From Bradyrhizobium mercantei (GTDB lineage: Bacteria > Pseudomonadota > Alphaproteobacteria > Rhizobiales > Xanthobacteraceae): a DNA stretch of 64,000 nt. The translations under genes and the position numbers were made by a program. The stretch spans positions 795,313 through 859,312 of the forward strand of contig NZ_MKFI01000002.1 in NCBI RefSeq assembly GCF_001982635.1. The letters run 5' to 3'. This document shows positions 1,473-63,106 of this stretch, one piece after another. The stretch's first letter is position 1; the number at the start of each line of letters is the position of its first letter. The notes under the pieces are model-generated. The model was not told the DNA's origin. It did no database searches and was given only the letters and a program-made list of their open reading frames with translations.

Positions 1473-2975
1473 GTGAAGCGGCCGCGGAAGCGCGCTTCCA
1501 GCGTCGCTGTGATCGATATCGGCTCGAACTCGGTTCGACTCGTGGTTTACGAGTCGATGGCGCGCAGCCTCGTCACCATCTTCAACGAGAAGGCGCTGTG
1601 CGGGCTCGGACGCGAGGTGCAGAGCACCGGCCTGCTCGCAACCGACGCCGTCAACAAGGCGCTCACCGCGCTGCGCCGCTTTCGCGCGCTGTGCCGGATC
1701 CAGCAGGTCGGCCGCGTCTACGCGATCGCGACCGCGGCCTGCCGCGACGCCAAGAACGGTCCGGACTTCATCGCCCAGGCCGAGCGGATCTGCGGCGCCA
1801 AGATCGAGATTCTCACCGGACCGCGTGAGGCGAAGCTGTCTGCGCTCGGCGTCGTCTCGGGCGTGCACAATCCGAACGGCATCGTCGGCGATCTCGGCGG
1901 CGGCTCGCTCGAACTGATCGACGTCAAGGGCAACCGCGTGCGCAGCGGCGTGACGCTGCCGCTCGGCAGCCTCGCGCTACAGGACCTCTCGAACAAATCG
2001 CTCAAGCGCGCCGAACGCATCGTCAAGAACGAGCTGCTCGGCGTCGCCCAGCTCAAGACCGGGCGCGGCCGCACCTTCTACGCGGTCGGCGGCACCTGGC
2101 GCGCGCTCGCGCGCATCCACATCATCCAGAGCGGCTACCCGCTCAAGGTGATGCACGGCTATTCGATTCCGGCCGCGGATGCGCTCGACTTCGCGCAGCG
2201 GCTGCGGCGGCTGGCGGCCACCAACATGCTGGCCAACATCGAATCGATCGCCGATGCGCGGCGGCCGCTATTGGCCTATGCCGCGCTCGTGCTCGAATAC
2301 ATCATCCGTGTCGCGCAGCCGAAGACCATCGTGTTCTCGACCTTCGGCGTGCGCGAGGGCCTGCTCTACGAGATGCTGCCGCAGGTCGAACGCGCCAAGG
2401 ACGGACTGGCCTGTGCCGCGCAGAACCTCAACGTATTGCTGTCGCGCTCGGCCCGTCACGCCCAGGAGCTGACCGCCTGGACCGACCGCCTGGTGCGGGT
2501 CGTCAGGCTGCGCGAGACCGAGGAAGACCGCAGGCTGCGGCACGTCGCCTGCCTGCTCTCCGACATCGGCTGGCGGGTGCATCCCGATCATCGCGGCGAG
2601 GAAACCCTCAGCCTGATCATGAACGGCAATTTCGGCTCGATCACCCATCAGGGCCGCGCCTTCGTCGCGCTCTCGGTGTTCTATCGCTACGCCGGACTCA
2701 GCGAGGAAAATGAGCCGCCGCCGCAGATTCGCGCGCTGGTGACGCCGGCGATGGACGAGCGCGCGCGTGTGCTCGGCGCCGCGTTCCGCGTCGCGCATCT
2801 GATCACGGCCGCACGCACCGGCGTGCTGCCGCTGACGCATTTCCGCACCCAGGGCCGCAAGCTGATGCTGGTGTTCGAGCACCGGATGGTGGATCTGGTC
2901 GCCGACCGGGTCGGCAGCCGCTTCAGGCAATTGGCGCGGCTGGTCGGGCGCGCCGGCTCGATCGTGCGGCGCTAG
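1473..2975 (+). CDS. ppx: Exopolyphosphatase (Ppx/GppA family)
   Basis: A 500-residue Ppx/GppA phosphatase that removes terminal phosphates from polyphosphate, or pppGpp in some homologues. The ASKHA-fold signatures are clear: a phosphate-binding loop AVIDIGSNS at residues 12-20 and a second loop DLGGGSLEL near residues 140-148. The C-terminal third is the HD-like helical domain of long Ppx proteins. GTG at 1473 is the best start: it is 12 bases after the ppk stop and puts the DIGSNS loop at the expected distance from the N-terminus. The gene is the second member of a ppk-ppx pair. Its TAG stop is embedded in the left end of a 105-bp palindromic repeat. Whether this copy prefers polyphosphate or pppGpp cannot be told from sequence. 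Confidence 0.94.
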   Translation: MKRPRKRASSVAVIDIGSNSVRLVVYESMARSLVTIFNEKALCGLGREVQSTGLLATDAVNKALTALRRFRALCRIQQVGRVYAIATAACRDAKNGPDFIAQAERICGAKIEILTGPREAKLSALGVVSGVHNPNGIVGDLGGGSLELIDVKGNRVRSGVTLPLGSLALQDLSNKSLKRAERIVKNELLGVAQLKTGRGRTFYAVGGTWRALARIHIIQSGYPLKVMHGYSIPAADALDFAQRLRRLAATNMLANIESIADARRPLLAYAALVLEYIIRVAQPKTIVFSTFGVREGLLYEMLPQVERAKDGLACAAQNLNVLLSRSARHAQELTAWTDRLVRVVRLRETEEDRRLRHVACLLSDIGWRVHPDHRGEETLSLIMNGNFGSITHQGRAFVALSVFYRYAGLSEENEPPPQIRALVTPAMDERARVLGAAFRVAHLITAARTGVLPLTHFRTQGRKLMLVFEHRMVDLVADRVGSRFRQLARLVGRAGSIVRR

Positions 2976-3076
2976 AGCATGATCCGGAAAAGTGCGAAGC
3001 GGTTTTCCGGAACGATCATGCTCAAACAAAGCGCCAAAGCCCGATGACGATTCAACCTAATCTCATCGCGCTTTAG
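2972..3076. repeat. 105-bp palindromic element A (copy 1), abutting the ppx stop codon
   Basis: Intergenic element starting CTAGAGCATGATCC and ending CGCGCTTTAG. The left part forms a long hairpin (GCATGATCCGGAAAA ... TTTTCCGGAACGATCATGC). A second copy of exactly the same length lies inverted at 55407-55511. The first CTAG overlaps the ppx stop codon. It sits between two convergent genes, so it may act as a bidirectional 3' hairpin, though no run of T follows. Confidence 0.85.
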
Positions 3077-3085
3077 TCAGTCTCG

Positions 3086-3925
3086 TCACGCCGCCTTGGC
3101 GGCGTGCTTGGCCTTGCGCAGCGCGTGGCGGCGCCAGAGCGATCCCATCACCAGCACCACGATGATGCCGAGCACCGCGAGCGCGATCTCGCCGCCGCTG
3201 CCGCCATGGCCGAATTGCGGCGACATCCCGATCGACGCCAGCCAGGAATCGAGCTTGGCGCCAAGCGGTCCGGCGAACAGCGCATCGAGCCTCGGATGCA
3301 CCGCCGGATCGGTCGCGATGACGTCGCCCGCGATCCAGCCGAGCAGCGCGGCGCCGGCCCAGACCAGGATCGGCAGCTTGGTGAGCAGCGCCATGATCAG
3401 CGCCGCACCGGCAACGATCAGGGGAACGCTGATCGCAAGCCCGAGCACCAACAGCGGCACGCTGCCATTGGCGGCGGCAGCCACCGCGATCACGTTGTCG
3501 AGGCTCATCACGATGTCGGCGACGACGACGATCTGAACCGCGGCCCACAGATGCGAGGCCGCATGCACACTGTCCTCGTCCTCCTGCTCCGGCACCAGGA
3601 GCTTGGCGGCGATCACTAGCAGCGCCAGTCCGCCGACGAGCTTCAGATAGGGAAGCTCCATCAGGCTGGCGACGATGCCGGTGAAGATGACGCGCAGCAG
3701 CACCGCCGCGGCGGCGCCGAGAATCATGCCCCACAGCCGCTGCCGCGGCGCGAGCCCCCGGCAGGCGAGCGCGATCACGAGCGCGTTGTCGCCCGACAGC
3801 AGGACGTTGATCCAGATGATCTTGCCGACGGCGACCCAGAAGGCCGGCGTCGCCATCTCGTTCTTGAACTCGGTGAAGAACGCGCCGATGTACGCCGGAT
3901 CAAAGATCTGCCACAGCCAGTCCAC
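3086..3925 (-). CDS. TerC/YjbE-family integral membrane protein
   Basis: A 279-residue polytopic membrane protein of the TerC family. The N-terminal part has the family motif in WINVLLSGDNALVIALACRGL (about residues 38-58; the DNA acid-polar motif sits in a membrane helix), and a second related half contains DIVMSLDNVIAVAAAA (about 134-149). The paired GDNA/LDNV motifs are the hallmark of this family, linked to metal-ion (often Mn) export during membrane-protein metalation. About seven hydrophobic segments are visible and the C-terminus is short and Lys/Ala-rich. No tellurite-resistance cluster is nearby, so a housekeeping metal-homeostasis role is more likely than tellurite resistance. It is monocistronic, convergent with ppx. 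Confidence 0.88.
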   Translation of the reverse strand: MDWLWQIFDPAYIGAFFTEFKNEMATPAFWVAVGKIIWINVLLSGDNALVIALACRGLAPRQRLWGMILGAAAAVLLRVIFTGIVASLMELPYLKLVGGLALLVIAAKLLVPEQEDEDSVHAASHLWAAVQIVVVADIVMSLDNVIAVAAAANGSVPLLVLGLAISVPLIVAGAALIMALLTKLPILVWAGAALLGWIAGDVIATDPAVHPRLDALFAGPLGAKLDSWLASIGMSPQFGHGGSGGEIALAVLGIIVVLVMGSLWRRHALRKAKHAAKAA

Positions 3926-52726: not shown

Positions 52727-53974
52727 CTACGCTGTCTTCTGCGCCGTCGCACGCGCGGCGATCGCGAGCGCGAGAAGCAGCAGTGCGCCCGCCAGATAGA
52801 ACGGCGCGCCGGGCAGCTTGAGCGGCGCGCCGTCGCCGATGAAATATGCAAAGGTCAGCGTGAACAGGAACGGGCCGATCAATTCCGACATGCTCTGCAC
52901 GCTCGATGTCGCGCCCTGCAACTGGCCCTGCTGGTCGGCGGCGACGAGCTGCGTCGTCAGTGCCTGTGTCGCCGCGCCGGAAATGCCCCACAGCGCCATC
53001 ACGGGAATGCCGATCCAGAACAGCTGGCCAGTCGGCGCCGCGCCGAAGATCACGAAGCCCAAGGCACCGCAGACGAGGCCGAGGAACAGCGCGTTGCGTT
53101 CGCCGAGGCGCTGCACGATCGGGCCGATCGCCGCGCCCTGCACGATCATGCCGCAGAGCCCGACCAGCGCCAGCGTCGCGCCGACCGTGCCGGTGTCCCA
53201 GCCGTAGCGATAGGTGGCGTAGAGCACGAACACCGACGGCAGCACGACATGCGCGAGCTGGCCGAAGAACGTCGCCAGCGACAGCCCGGCGAGCGTCGGG
53301 TTCGCGCGCAGGAAATGCAGCGCGCCGATCGGATTGGCGCTCTTCCACTTGAACGGCGCTCGCCGCTCGACCGGCAGCGATTCCGGCAGGATGAACAGGC
53401 CATAGAGCCCGTTGACGAAGCTCAGGCCTGCCGCCGCCCAGAACGGCAGCCGCGGATCGATCTCGCCGAGCAGGCCGCCGAGCGCCGGTCCCATGATGAA
53501 GCCCGCGCCGAAGGCAACGCCGATCTTGCCGAACATCGCGGCGCGCTGCTCCGGCGCCGTGACGTCGGCGATATAGGCGAACACGGTCGAGATGCTCGAC
53601 GAGGTGATGCCCGAGATCGCCCGCCCGATGAACAGCCAGATCAGGTTCGGCGCCAGCGCCATCAGCACATAGTCGGCGGCAAGGCCGAAATTCGACAGCA
53701 GCACCACCGGCCGGCGGCCGAAGCGATCCGACAGCGCGCCAAGAATCGGCGAGCAGACGAACTGCATCAACGCCCAGATCGAGCCGAACACACCGAAGAT
53801 GCGCGCCGCGCTTGCGGTGTCGTTGCTGACGAAGCCCTCGATCAGCTTGGGCAGGATCGGAACGATGATCCCGAGCGCCAGCATGTCGAGGAGCAGAGTG
53901 ATGAAGATGAAGACCACCGCGCCGCTGCGCGCCGGGGCTGCGGCAACCGTATCACTCGCCGCCTCGCCGCTCAT
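52727..53974 (-). CDS. MFS transporter, Tet-type drug exporter family
   Basis: A 415-residue twelve-helix major-facilitator transporter of the TCR/Tet group. The motif A loop [17 protein letters not shown] is near residues 75-91, [13 protein letters not shown] near 117, and the second-half motif pattern is present. The TetA-like layout suggests export of a small hydrophobic or cationic drug-like compound by proton antiport; substrate unknown. ATG at 53974 overlaps the der stop by ATGA, so it is co-translated with der; the long frame reading back into der is a shadow. No TetR gene is adjacent on this side. Confidence 0.87.
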
Positions 53975-55353
53975 GACGGCCGCTTGCGCTTGTGGGCGAA
54001 CGGGTTGGCCTTTTCCCTTAGCGTAATACGAATCGGCGTACCCGGCAGGTCGAAGGTCTCGCGCAGCGAGTTGATGAGGTAGCGCAGATAGGATCGCGGG
54101 ATCGCATCGGCGCGCGAGCAGAACAGCACGAAGCTCGGCGGGCGCGCCTTCACCTGCGTGATGTAGTTCAGCTTCAGCCGGCGGCCCGACACGGCCGGCG
54201 GCGGGTTGGCCTGGATCGCCTGCTCGAACCAGCGATTGAGCGCCGAGGTCGGCAGGCGCCGGTTCCAGACCGCATAGGCCTCCTGGATCGCCGTCATCAG
54301 GCGGTCGATGCCCTCGCCCATCAGGCCGGAGACGGCAACGATCGGTGCGCCCTTGACCTGCGGCAGCCAGTGGTCGGCATCGGTGCGCAGTTGCGAGATC
54401 TGGTTCGGCTTGCGCTCGACGAGGTCCCATTTGTTGACCGCGAGCACGATCGCGCGGCCCTCGCGCTCGATCAGGTCGGCGATGCGCAGGTCCTGCTCCT
54501 CGAACTTGTTCTGCGCGTCCATCATCATCACGACGACCTCGGCGAAGCGCACCGCGCGCAGCGCATCCGCGACCGAGAGCTTCTCCAGCTTCTCCTCGAT
54601 CCGCGAGCGGCGGCGCAGACCGGCGGTGTCGAACACCCGGAACTGGCGGCCCTGCCAGGTGATCTCGACCGCGATGGAATCGCGCGTCGTGCCGGCCTCC
54701 GGGCTGGTCAACAGCCGCTCCTCGCCGAGCAGGTGATTGATCAGCGTCGACTTGCCGGCGTTGGGCCGGCCGACGATCGCAACCCGGATCGGGCGCTGCG
54801 CGGCGTCCTCCTCCGAGATGTCCTCGTCGTCCTCGACCTCGTCGTCCTCCTCCGGCGTCTCGGGCACCAGCGCGCTCAGCGCCTCGTGGAGGTCACCCAT
54901 GCCCTCGCCATGCTCGGCCGAGATCTGCACGGGATCGCCGAGCCCGAGCGCGTAGGATTCCATCGCCCCGATCTCGCCGTGCTTGCCCTCGGCCTTGTTG
55001 GCGACCAGCACCACCGGCTTGTTGGCCTTGCGGGCGAAGTCGGCGAAGGCGCGGTCGGTCGGGGTCAGGCCAACGCGGGCGTCGATCACGAACATCAGGG
55101 CGTCGGCGAGCTCGATCGCGGTTTCGGTCTGCTCCTGCATCCGCGCCGTCAGCGAACCCTTGGCGCCCTCGTCGAGCCCCGCGGTATCGATGATAGTGAA
55201 GTCGAGATCGTAGAGCCGGGCCTGGCCCTCGCGACGGTCACGCGTCACGCCTGGCTCGTCGTCGACCAGCGCGAGCTTCTGGCCGACCAGCCGGTTGAAC
55301 AGCGTCGACTTTCCGACATTGGGCCGGCCGATGATGGCAATGGTGAAAGACAT
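53971..55353 (-). CDS. der: Ribosome-biogenesis GTPase Der
   Basis: A 460-residue tandem-GTPase (EngA/Der) needed for 50S subunit maturation. The first G domain has [11 protein letters not shown] (8-18) and a DTAGLDEG switch; the second has [11 protein letters not shown] (about 192-202), DTAGLRRRS and NKWDL. The two are joined by an acidic linker, and a KH-like C-terminal domain follows (about 360-440). It is terminal in a group with a lipoprotein and a TPR protein upstream, and is coupled by ATGA to the exporter downstream. Confidence 0.97.
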
Positions 55354-55406: not shown

Positions 55407-55511
55407 CTAACGCGCGATGAGATTGGGTTGAACCGTCATCGCGCTCTAGATTCTTGTTTTAGCATGATCTTTTCGGAAAACCGCTTCGCACTTTTCCGGA
55501 TCATGCTTTAG
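55407..55511. repeat. 105-bp palindromic element A (copy 2, inverted), abutting a stop codon
   Basis: Read on the minus strand it runs from CTAAAGCATGATCCGG to ATCGCGCGTTAG and is exactly as long as copy 1 (2972-3076), with a similar sequence throughout. The first CTAA overlaps the TAA stop of the lipoprotein gene (minus strand). The hairpin core GCATGATC ... GATCATGC is well conserved. Confidence 0.85.
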
Positions 55512-56062
55512 CGGCTAAATCCGCCGCTCGGTAGCGGCGCAGGGAAGCCTCCGCCGGATTGTTGCGTGGTCTGGGATTGCTGGGCCGGCGCCGCGGGCTG
55601 CGCCTGCTGGTCGTCGGCGGGCGGCGCAGTGGTGCGGCGGCGGACGATCTTCTTCGGCTTCGGATCCGGCGGCACCGCGGCGGGCGCGCCCTCCTCGGTC
55701 GCAGCGTCGGGAGCCGCCGCCTGGTCGGCGGCCGGCGCGGCCCGCTTGGTGTGCTTCTTGGCGCCCTTCGGCGGCTCCGGCGGCGGAGCCGGCTGGGCAG
55801 CAGCGGCCGCCGCGGCGTTCTGCTGGTCGAGCTGCTCCTGCTGCGAGCCCTTGTACAATTCCTTCGGCACGCCCTGCTCGAGGCCGGGCACGCCTTCGGG
55901 GAACACCGGCTTGCGGTCGCCTTGCAGCTTCTTCTTGGTGTCGAGGAAGTCGAGCAGGTCGCTCGGGTCGAAATTGGCCATGCCGCCACCGCCGCAGCCT
56001 GCCAGCGCGCTGCAAAGCGCGGTCAGAACTGCGGCTGCGATCAGGCGTTGCGAGCGGCGCAT
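55508..56062 (-). CDS. Lipoprotein with disordered Pro/Ala/Gln tail, between TPR gene and der
   Basis: A 184-residue predicted lipoprotein. A signal sequence leads to lipobox LAGC (Cys about 23), followed by GGGGMANFDPSDLLDFLDTKKKLQGDRKPVFPEGVPGLEQGVP, a short conserved-looking segment, then a long Pro/Ala/Gln/Lys tail. ATG at 56062 is favoured as the signal peptide begins there. Between the TPR protein and der one usually finds the PQQ-propeller BamB in related bacteria; this is far too short and has no propeller, so it is not BamB. Role unknown; possibly part of envelope assembly by position only. Confidence 0.75.
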   Translation of the reverse strand: MRRSQRLIAAAVLTALCSALAGCGGGGMANFDPSDLLDFLDTKKKLQGDRKPVFPEGVPGLEQGVPKELYKGSQQEQLDQQNAAAAAAAQPAPPPEPPKGAKKHTKRAAPAADQAAAPDAATEEGAPAAVPPDPKPKKIVRRRTTAPPADDQQAQPAAPAQQSQTTQQSGGGFPAPLPSGGFSR

Positions 56063-56111
56063 GGTCGATCTCTCACTCAAACTCGGGTTTCGCGCCAAGT
56101 CGGCTCTCAAG

Positions 56112-56768
56112 TCAGCTCTTGGCGACGGGCGGCAACAATGCCTGCAGCGCTTCGGCGCGCGAGCGCATGCTCGGCGGCGTCTCGCCGTCATTGGCAATCT
56201 GGTCGAGCCACTTCCGCGCGGCGGCGGCATCGTTGGCGCGCCAGGCCGACAGCGCCAGCAGCTCGCGCGCGGAGTGACGGAAGGTCGAGTCCGTCGACGT
56301 CGCCATCGCCTCGAGCCGTTGCAGCATGTTGGGATAGGTGGTGGTTTCCATCAGGATCTGCGCGGCGCGAATCCGTGCCAGGTCCTGATCGGGGCCGCCG
56401 ACGCTGCGGTCGGCTGCAATCTCGTCATAAAGCTTCGCGGCGGCCGGTTGGTCGCGCGTCGCGACCTCGGCGGCCATGCGCAGCCGCGCCAGCGTGCGGT
56501 AGCCGGACGGCGCCTTGGTGATCAGGTCGGCAAAGGCGGCCTCGGCCTCGGTGTGCTTGTTCTGGTCCGACAGCTCGACGGCGCGGTCGAACGCCGCACC
56601 GGCCTCGGCGGCCTTCTTGGCCTCGAGATACTGATAGCCGCGCCAGCCGCCGACGCCCGCGACCACCAGGATCGCCAGCGCGATGATAAAGATCGAGTAC
56701 TTGTCCCACAGCTTCTTGAGCTGATCGCGACGGACTTCCTCGTCTACTTCGTCAAATAATTCAGACAC
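56112..56768 (-). CDS. TPR-type membrane protein of the YfgM-like group
   Basis: A 218-residue protein with an N-terminal cytoplasmic stretch (MSELFDEVDEEVRRDQLKKLWDKY), one membrane helix (IFIIALAILVVAGVGGWRGYQYL, about 24-47) and a periplasmic helical repeat region (about 55-210) that resembles TPRs. This layout matches YfgM-type ancillary subunits of the SecYEG translocon/periplasmic chaperone network. Upstream of the lipoprotein and der, it fits the YfgM-BamB-Der neighbourhood with the middle gene replaced. Confidence 0.83.
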   Translation of the reverse strand: MSELFDEVDEEVRRDQLKKLWDKYSIFIIALAILVVAGVGGWRGYQYLEAKKAAEAGAAFDRAVELSDQNKHTEAEAAFADLITKAPSGYRTLARLRMAAEVATRDQPAAAKLYDEIAADRSVGGPDQDLARIRAAQILMETTTYPNMLQRLEAMATSTDSTFRHSARELLALSAWRANDAAAARKWLDQIANDGETPPSMRSRAEALQALLPPVAKS

Positions 56769-62972: not shown

Positions 62973-63057
62973 GGCGGGGCATTTGGCAGGGAAAACGGGC
63001 GCAATCAAGGGCGTTTTGTCGCAATGCGGAACGGTCGCCCCACCCCCATATAGGCGC

Positions 63058-63106
63058 GGGAAGGACGACCTTCTCCTCACCATACCATCTGCGGGGACGA
63101 CCCTGC
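63058..63106 (+). promoter_or_regulatory. Guanidine-II (mini-ykkC) riboswitch
   Basis: Two small hairpins, each closed by an ACGA tetraloop: GAAGG-ACGA-CCTTC at 63060-63073 (the stem extends two more pairs) and GCGGGG-ACGA-CCCTGC at 63091-63106. The 15-20 base linker and the tandem ACGR loops are the defining features of the mini-ykkC class. It lies just before the ribosome-binding site GGAGGG (63113-63118) of gdx, a typical gene under its control. It should turn on translation of the exporter when guanidinium is present. Confidence 0.85.

Follow-up and report, generated by a model that had tools for sequence, protein, structure and literature searches.

A two-hairpin repeat of Bradyrhizobium that coincides with stop codons and probably rebuilds them by inserting at TA

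The DNA analysed here is a stretch of 64,000 nt from Bradyrhizobium mercantei (the window; positions are counted from its first base), in which two copies of a palindromic repeat adjoin two different genes in such a way that the stop codon of each gene lies within the end of the repeat. This arrangement raises the question of whether the position reflects a choice of target, a function of the hairpin at the mRNA 3' end, or the survival of those copies that do no harm. Our analysis favours, with a probability of about 85%, a non-autonomous, MITE-like repeat of two hairpins that accumulates on gene ends and needs no function there.

Results

The two copies in the window

An earlier note on this sequence had described an inverted pair of 105-bp elements whose terminal CTAG or CTAA overlaps the stop codons of ppx and of a lipoprotein gene, with a hairpin starting within a few bases of the stop, and this description was borne out in each of its parts. 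Both copies (Table 1) measure 105 bp, lie in opposite orientation and align without gaps at 86.7% identity, and no further full copy was found in the window. From the ORF ends at 2975 and 55508, the stop TAG of ppx occupies bases 2-4 of the CTAG of copy 1, and the stop TAA of the lipoprotein-like gene, whose lipobox was spotted by eye, occupies bases 2-4 of the CTAA of copy 2. The copies open with CTAR-A-GCATGATC and close with GCGCKTTAG, and each is predicted to fold into two hairpins joined by a linker, at energies far below those of dinucleotide shuffles (z of -7.6 and -6.8). Predicted pairing of hairpin 1 begins at the last base of the stop in copy 1 and at the following base in copy 2. 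What moves is probably the 99-bp stretch enclosed by the two TA copies, the outer C and G belonging to the target; the right junction of copy 1 is not clean in relatives. The element has no match in Rfam at gathering scores. The sole match in the window at these scores is a Guanidine-II riboswitch (mini-ykkC) at 63057-63105 on the + strand (35.3 bits).

Table 1. Positions in the window of the two repeat copies, their parts and the neighbouring genes.
Feature	Position	Strand	Basis or remark
Repeat copy 1, target C and G included	2972..3076	+	86.7% identity with copy 2 over 105 bp
Left TA of copy 1 (target copy)	2973..2974	+	TA + first element base G = ppx stop TAG 2973-2975
Right TA of copy 1 (target copy), then G	3074..3075	+	Sequence; model of TA duplication drawn from other copies' empty sites
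Hairpin 1 of copy 1, arm AAAAGTG...CGGTTTTC	2975..3023	+	Fold
Hairpin 2 of copy 1	3036..3074	+	Fold
GATTC (GANTC site) of copy 1	3049-3053	+	Adjoins and lies partly within hairpin-2 loop
ppx, exopolyphosphatase gene	1473..2975	+	Pfam Ppx-GppA and Ppx_C; stop is left end of copy 1
TerC-family gene, convergent	3086..3925	-	Stop codon TGA; distance to right end of copy 1, 10 bases
Repeat copy 2	55407..55511	-	Alignment with copy 1; empty site CCGC-TAG-GCTCC in congener G010
Left TA of copy 2	55509..55510	-	TA + first element base A = stop TAA 55508-55510; same-codon stop in G010
Right TA of copy 2, then G of original TAG	55408..55409	-	Filled/empty comparison
Lipoprotein-like gene	55508..56230	-	ORF; Pfam without match; stop is left end of copy 2
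der/engA-type GTPase gene, downstream of copy 2	53971..55353	-	

Copy number and spread

In the genome from which the window was taken (G000; 8.84 Mb in 72 contigs), the hairpin-1 core was matched 122 times with at most 3 mismatches, and a reversed control gave 0 matches. The copies analysed in this genome number 108 and lie within 1.32 Mb, or about 15% of the genome, made up of the surroundings of the best 100 of the 122 core matches and of eight arbitrary 20-kb regions; the best matches were taken first, so decayed copies are under-sampled. A scan of named genomes for the exact hairpin, a choice that favours intact copies, returned at least 80 loci, and among the matches listed 78 belong to Bradyrhizobium, one to a Bradyrhizobiaceae MAG and one to a Beijerinckiaceae MAG. 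The core is present in 26 of 121 sampled genomes of the order, and 32 plasmid records, from Rhizobium, Bradyrhizobium, Allorhizobium, Agrobacterium and Mesorhizobium, carry relatives of the element. A recurrent longer variant is formed by long-loop copies (L026, L261 and others) that carry a nested palindrome, CTCGCGACAAACGCGGAACGCGTTTGCGCGGA, within hairpin 1.

Coincidence with stop codons

The G000 segments contain 1230 genes called with a home-made caller based on codon usage, for which only the plasmid annotations described below serve as an independent check. The nearest left neighbour is co-directional in 74 of the 108 core copies, and in 37 of the 108 the stop of that neighbour finishes one base ahead of GCATGATC. 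Within the same 74, the stop lies at position 0 in six cases, at +1 in two and at the TGA inside GCATGATC (+6) in six, and the remaining 23 stops are found at scattered distances upstream. The right end could be recognised in 42 copies; 24 of these face a convergent gene, whose stop falls exactly at the right terminus in 12, so that at least one end lies in a stop in 22/42 and both ends do in 5/42. No called gene spans the core of any of the 108 copies or reaches more than 6 bases past its start.

The earlier note had considered chance an unlikely cause of such placement and had named, as the result that would speak against it, a lack of enrichment at stops over the intergenic background. The enrichment is present: under a uniform null, a stop stands exactly at that place for about 0.28% of non-coding positions, against the 37 of 108 copies observed. 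Among the non-coding sites of G000, the only genome used for this background and sampled in segments chosen around copies, the share located at stops is 9.5% for TA, 17.2% for YTAR and 29.1% for CTAG; the 22/42 copies exceed all three (p = 2e-12, 2e-7 and 0.0013, respectively), and the excess persists even against non-coding CTAG sites. In the named genomes, a left-end stop was found in 35 of 80 copies (78 independent flanks), a count that leaves out six more copies near locus edges, and the two-ended copies have a right stop in 19/65, a stop at either end in 46/65 and at both in 6/65 (46/65 against the G000 CTAG share, p = 5e-12). Two other families of the order differ in this respect: 9 of 14 co-directional copies coincide in G109, and in G143 the effect is weak (2 of 15). 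Pure coincidence between the end of a short repeat and common stop codons, of which some is expected since both contain TAR, can be set aside as next to impossible, refuted as it is by the uniform, TA, YTAR and CTAG nulls alike and by replication in independent genomes.

Annotation by PGAP, independent of our caller, was consulted at nine plasmid loci, one of them unannotated. A CDS ends at element base 4 in five of the eight annotated loci (H1, H2, H7, H17 and H20), and at H1 CDS stops are found at both ends of the element. No CDS ends at this base in H15, H19 and H23, the latter two resembling one locus in two strains, and at H15 a CDS extends 66 bases into a relative of the element.

The repeat mostly uses TA-stops that stand in a CTAR context. 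The gene ends that coincide with it number 49 and comprise 22 TAG, 19 TAA and 8 TGA, against 309 TAG, 192 TAA and 618 TGA among 1119 other genes, which amounts to 41/49 TA-stops versus 501/1119. In addition, C precedes the TAR in 34 of the 41 used TA-stops versus 159 of the 501 in the background. One copy in the congener G010 (8054652) lies on a TGA, and its empty site also reads TGA. Among the convergent gene pairs called in the 1.32 Mb of G000, 7 of 199 overlap by four bases; these share TTAG, CTAA or TTAA, and CTAG is shared by 0. Pairs sharing CTAG may have been consumed by insertions.

Empty sites and the age of the stop codon

The comparison of G000 with the congener G010 covered 130 copies, with up to 5 substitutions allowed and an edge filter that kept 107 of the 108 G000 copies. 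Of the resulting rows, 94 lack an ortholog in the compared parts, 21 are 'empty' and 15 'filled'. The element is accordingly missing from the other genome in 21 of 36 comparable rows, two of which hold a shortened copy (C12:745449) or a different element (C23:653441) in G010. Eleven empty pairs could be read at both ends, and exact duplication of TA was seen on both sides in four of them: copy 2 of the window, where CCGC-TAG-GCTCC in G010 corresponds to CCGC-TA-[A...T]-TA-G in the filled site, C12:1053006 (TGC-TAG-CGC), G010:5350816 (AGC-TAG-CGC) and C12:483466 (GGC-TAT-CGC). Three further pairs match TA on one side only (1058344, 219981 and 522283), and four misfit the duplication or need extra changes (259667, 485100, 104195 and G010:8052736). 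At C12:268409, an 8-nt flanking repeat stands in place of a TA duplication. These pairs agree with that part of the earlier note which proposed target choice at CTAR, the target being C^TA^G or a similar TA in a pre-existing stop; as to the question raised there, whether CTAR is duplicated on insertion, the duplicated unit is TA and not CTAR.

In the testable cases the stop codon is older than the insertion and seldom moves. G010 allowed a test of 14 of the 58 coincident gene ends, and 13 of these have the stop at the same codon, as do 191 of 202 control genes. Where G010 lacks the element, the stop is at the same codon in nine of ten cases, one of the nine with a different element. In 17 of 19 relatives of the locus with the double-stop copy C67:128254, the end of the left gene is at the same codon. 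Both genes of this locus were found in nine relatives, with an exact overlap of four bases in two (L240 and L243), and in the remaining relatives the genes overlap by eight bases or stand at least 475 apart. A further relative, L239, reads GATCTAGTTC at this locus, which by eye could also be a shared stop, the right gene not having been recovered. Two exceptions were met: two relatives have a right-hand gene at C67:219981 that is shorter by 4-5 codons, and at C1:1335185 the gene is 11 codons longer in eight distant relatives (66-73% identity).

The site at the ppx stop was also followed through eight congeners. Four of them (L262, L263, L273 and L289) have a bare CGC TAG without the element, L282 has a full copy in the form CGC TAA plus element, L261 has a long-loop copy with TGA, L284 has a single hairpin, and L275 has another element, about 130 bp long, whose ends are similar. 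Other repeats with ends of this kind (CTAGAGTATGAT...ATCATGCTTTAA; GAGCATGATGTCATTTGGTTGAA...) were seen at the same stops in the G010 ortholog of G000:C23:653441 and in L275 at ppx, which suggests that further repeat families share the habit of landing on stop codons.

Discussion

Proposed mechanism

In the mechanism that we propose, the element (about 99 bp plus target) enters a TA, preferably that of C^TA^G, with duplication of the TA as shown by the clean filled/empty pairs, and a transposase would presumably act in trans. In this GC-rich genome, stop codons constitute a large share of the harmless targets, because CTAG is scarce within genes and frequent at NNC TAG stops. Most copies of the element have a purine as the outer base at both ends, and TA followed by a purine gives TAA or TAG on each side. 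Entry into C^TA^G, duplication of the TA and completion by the outer purine consequently remake the stop after landing, and the remade stops, as read in the sequence, serve the left-hand gene as well as a convergent right-hand gene. Since each end begins with A or G and rebuilds a working stop, the element could sit harmlessly even between tightly packed genes. Preference for CTAG accounts for roughly half of the stop effect; a second factor is needed, because the enrichment in G000 and in the named genomes (52% and 71%) lies above the 29% predicted from CTAG alone. The remainder probably comes from the loss of harmful insertions, in that copies damaging genes or promoters would have disappeared. 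Points against this mechanism are the four misfit pairs among the eleven, the flanking repeat at C12:268409, the TGA stops (8/49, and the G010 copy 8054652), the differing gene lengths in relatives at C67:219981 and C1:1335185, the weak effect in G143 (2/15) and the fruitless search for a partner transposase described below.

This mechanism offers a concrete reason why palindromic repeats abut gene ends in alphaproteobacteria, namely that the TA of the stop is the target and the element remakes it, and it suggests a route by which overlapping convergent genes could be separated without damage. It also calls for caution, given that a hairpin directly after a stop codon need not be a regulatory terminator. 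A stronger version, which we regard as tentative, takes the purine-ended termini for a maintained adaptation of a CIR-like family of alphaproteobacterial mobile repeats that uses stop codons as a safe harbour, including the shared CTAR of convergent overlapping genes, which would be pulled apart and yet both remain terminated; on this view, survival alone would not account for the excess over CTAG, and gene ends would be actively targeted as well.

Alternative explanations

The excess above the CTAG share is also what would be seen if the transposition machinery itself recognised gene ends beyond its CTAG preference, for instance through DNA exposed where transcription or translation ends. We consider this unlikely, in view of the fact that the loss of insertions harming promoters or genes predicts the same excess and that the background comes from G000 only, in segments picked around the copies.

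An explanation in which copies are retained since their hairpin terminates transcription or protects the 3' end of the upstream mRNA is less likely still and is not favoured here. It would fit the strong stem-loops directly after stops, the stop excess above the CTAG null, and the behaviour of E. coli REP hairpins, which act in this way according to the introduction of PMC5082802. However, no intrinsic terminator (a G+C-rich stem followed by a T run) was found on the ppx strand between 2800 and 3300, a search that concerned copy 1 only; the sole terminator-like site in this interval lies on the opposite strand, at 3032-3049. Moreover, in five of the seven copies common to G000 and G010 the identity of the hairpin is below that of its 200-bp flanks, the turnover seen in the comparable rows argues in the same direction, and an mRNA role alone leaves unexplained both the use of the element's own TAR as the stop and the duplication of TA. 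The suggestion of the earlier note that the repeat is selected as a stabilising or terminating 3' end consequently found no support, though an incidental effect on mRNA may occur.

It is highly improbable that the element lands anywhere near gene ends and that its built-in stops truncate or cap the gene. The element does carry a TAR at its end and a TGA inside GCATGATC, the latter used by six of the 74 co-directional genes, and the gene at C1:1335185 is shorter than its distant relatives, the right-hand gene at C67:219981 is longer than its counterparts in relatives, and the annotated CDS at H15 reaches element base 66. Against this stand the unequal use of frames (37 terminal TAR versus 6 internal TGA), the absence of called genes running more than 6 bases past the core start, and the 13 of 14 unmoved stops in G010, by which a new stop supplied by the element is largely refuted as a general rule for recent insertions.

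Search for a partner transposase

The IS loci surveyed, three with DDE_3 and two with PF13340 transposases, have different or unclear ends and yielded no partner transposase for the repeat. Around thirteen right-type ends that lack a left counterpart, no further end turned up at IS distance. In L085, two inverted copies lie 1.2 kb from each other; the pair was rejected as an autonomous element, the enclosed ORFs not being transposase-like by eye. A locus with an IS630-type transposase (L122, in G000:C10, about 28.7 kb) has a weak inverted repeat (14/20) and flanks of CTA and TAG; with an end match this weak, it may lie between CTA and TAG with ends unlike those of the repeat. We describe the element as a MITE resembling RUP and IS630 in its manner of insertion and not as an IS630 derivative, because no shared IS ends were found.

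Comparison with known repeats

RIME elements, with RIME1 of Rhizobium among them, are palindromic intergenic repeats of rhizobia. They resemble the present element in being palindromic, as do Bru-RS1, a 103-bp palindromic repeat of Brucella (PMC3163539), and Bru-RS2; the likeness of all three rests on descriptions and not on aligned sequences, and landing on stop codons is not mentioned in the parts of their accounts consulted. Bradyrhizobium has other palindromic repeats in 3'-UTRs, Br-REP1 and Br-REP2 (PMC5082802); identity with Br-REP1 was rejected, as the consensus CCGGAATCTCGAGATTCCGG given in the consulted part of that paper is absent from both window copies by direct reading.

With regard to insertion, a parallel is RUP of Streptococcus pneumoniae, a non-autonomous repeat of 107 bp that uses TA sites and whose movement is attributed to IS630-Spn1 acting in trans (PMC2229807, as far as consulted). 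The present element is likewise small, non-autonomous and located at TA sites, with TA duplicated on both sides in four pairs, matched on one side in three and not fitting in four. Unlike RUP, which has end sequences in common with its IS, it has no such IS among the loci surveyed. IS711 duplicates the TA of YTAR (PMC3163539, PMC2266754), and IS630 prefers TA in CTAG, according to a title cited in PMC2170065; their target habits are similar, although both are autonomous, whereas the present element codes for nothing.

The supply of stop codons by repeats is known. In one pneumococcal genome, 36 CDSs take their stop from BOX, with no strong sign of having been truncated (PMC3049150), and the termini of GTAG REPs, which are 20-40 bp long, often provide TAG stops (PMC3733652); the portions of these accounts consulted describe neither TA duplication nor insertion with a stop at both ends. 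What appears to be new is the explanation by TA duplication, which did not appear in our searches of a literature from which subscription papers were mostly outside scope; literal strings of the element gave no match there either.

The architecture of the element matches that of CIR, the CerM/CcrM-associated intergenic repeats of Caulobacter (Chen and Shapiro 2003, as presented in the consulted part of the review PMC2229807), which are about 110 bp long, have two hairpin arms and a linker, a GANTC at or partly in the loop of one arm, and TA termini, and are intergenic and spread over alphaproteobacteria. This likeness is to the description of CIR and not to the CIR1-4 sequences. In the present repeat, both 105-bp window copies fold into two arms, TA occupies the left end in 57 of 108 copies and TTAG the right end in 29 of 42, and the core lies outside called genes, with plasmid H15 as the exception. 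In the review, the entry for target duplication of CIR is '?', and their mobility is called unclear; the present repeat differs in that TA duplication and landing on stop codons have been shown, and we offer TA duplication for this question mark.

GANTC is present in 26 of the 42 two-ended copies of G000 (14.3 in composition shuffles) and in 59 of the 69 named ones, and its commonest position is the arm-2 loop, with 20 of the 26 and 51 of the 59, respectively. In the window, copy 1 has its GANTC at the loop and copy 2 has a GAATC in the linker only. Arm-2 stretches contain GANTC in 10 of 24 copies of G109 (4.4 in shuffles) and in 15 of 23 of G143 (5.3 in shuffles). Among the copies of these two families (L430-L469), the arm-2 stem differs from family to family and a GATTC in or near the loop recurs, a pattern that may point to a role for CcrM methylation.
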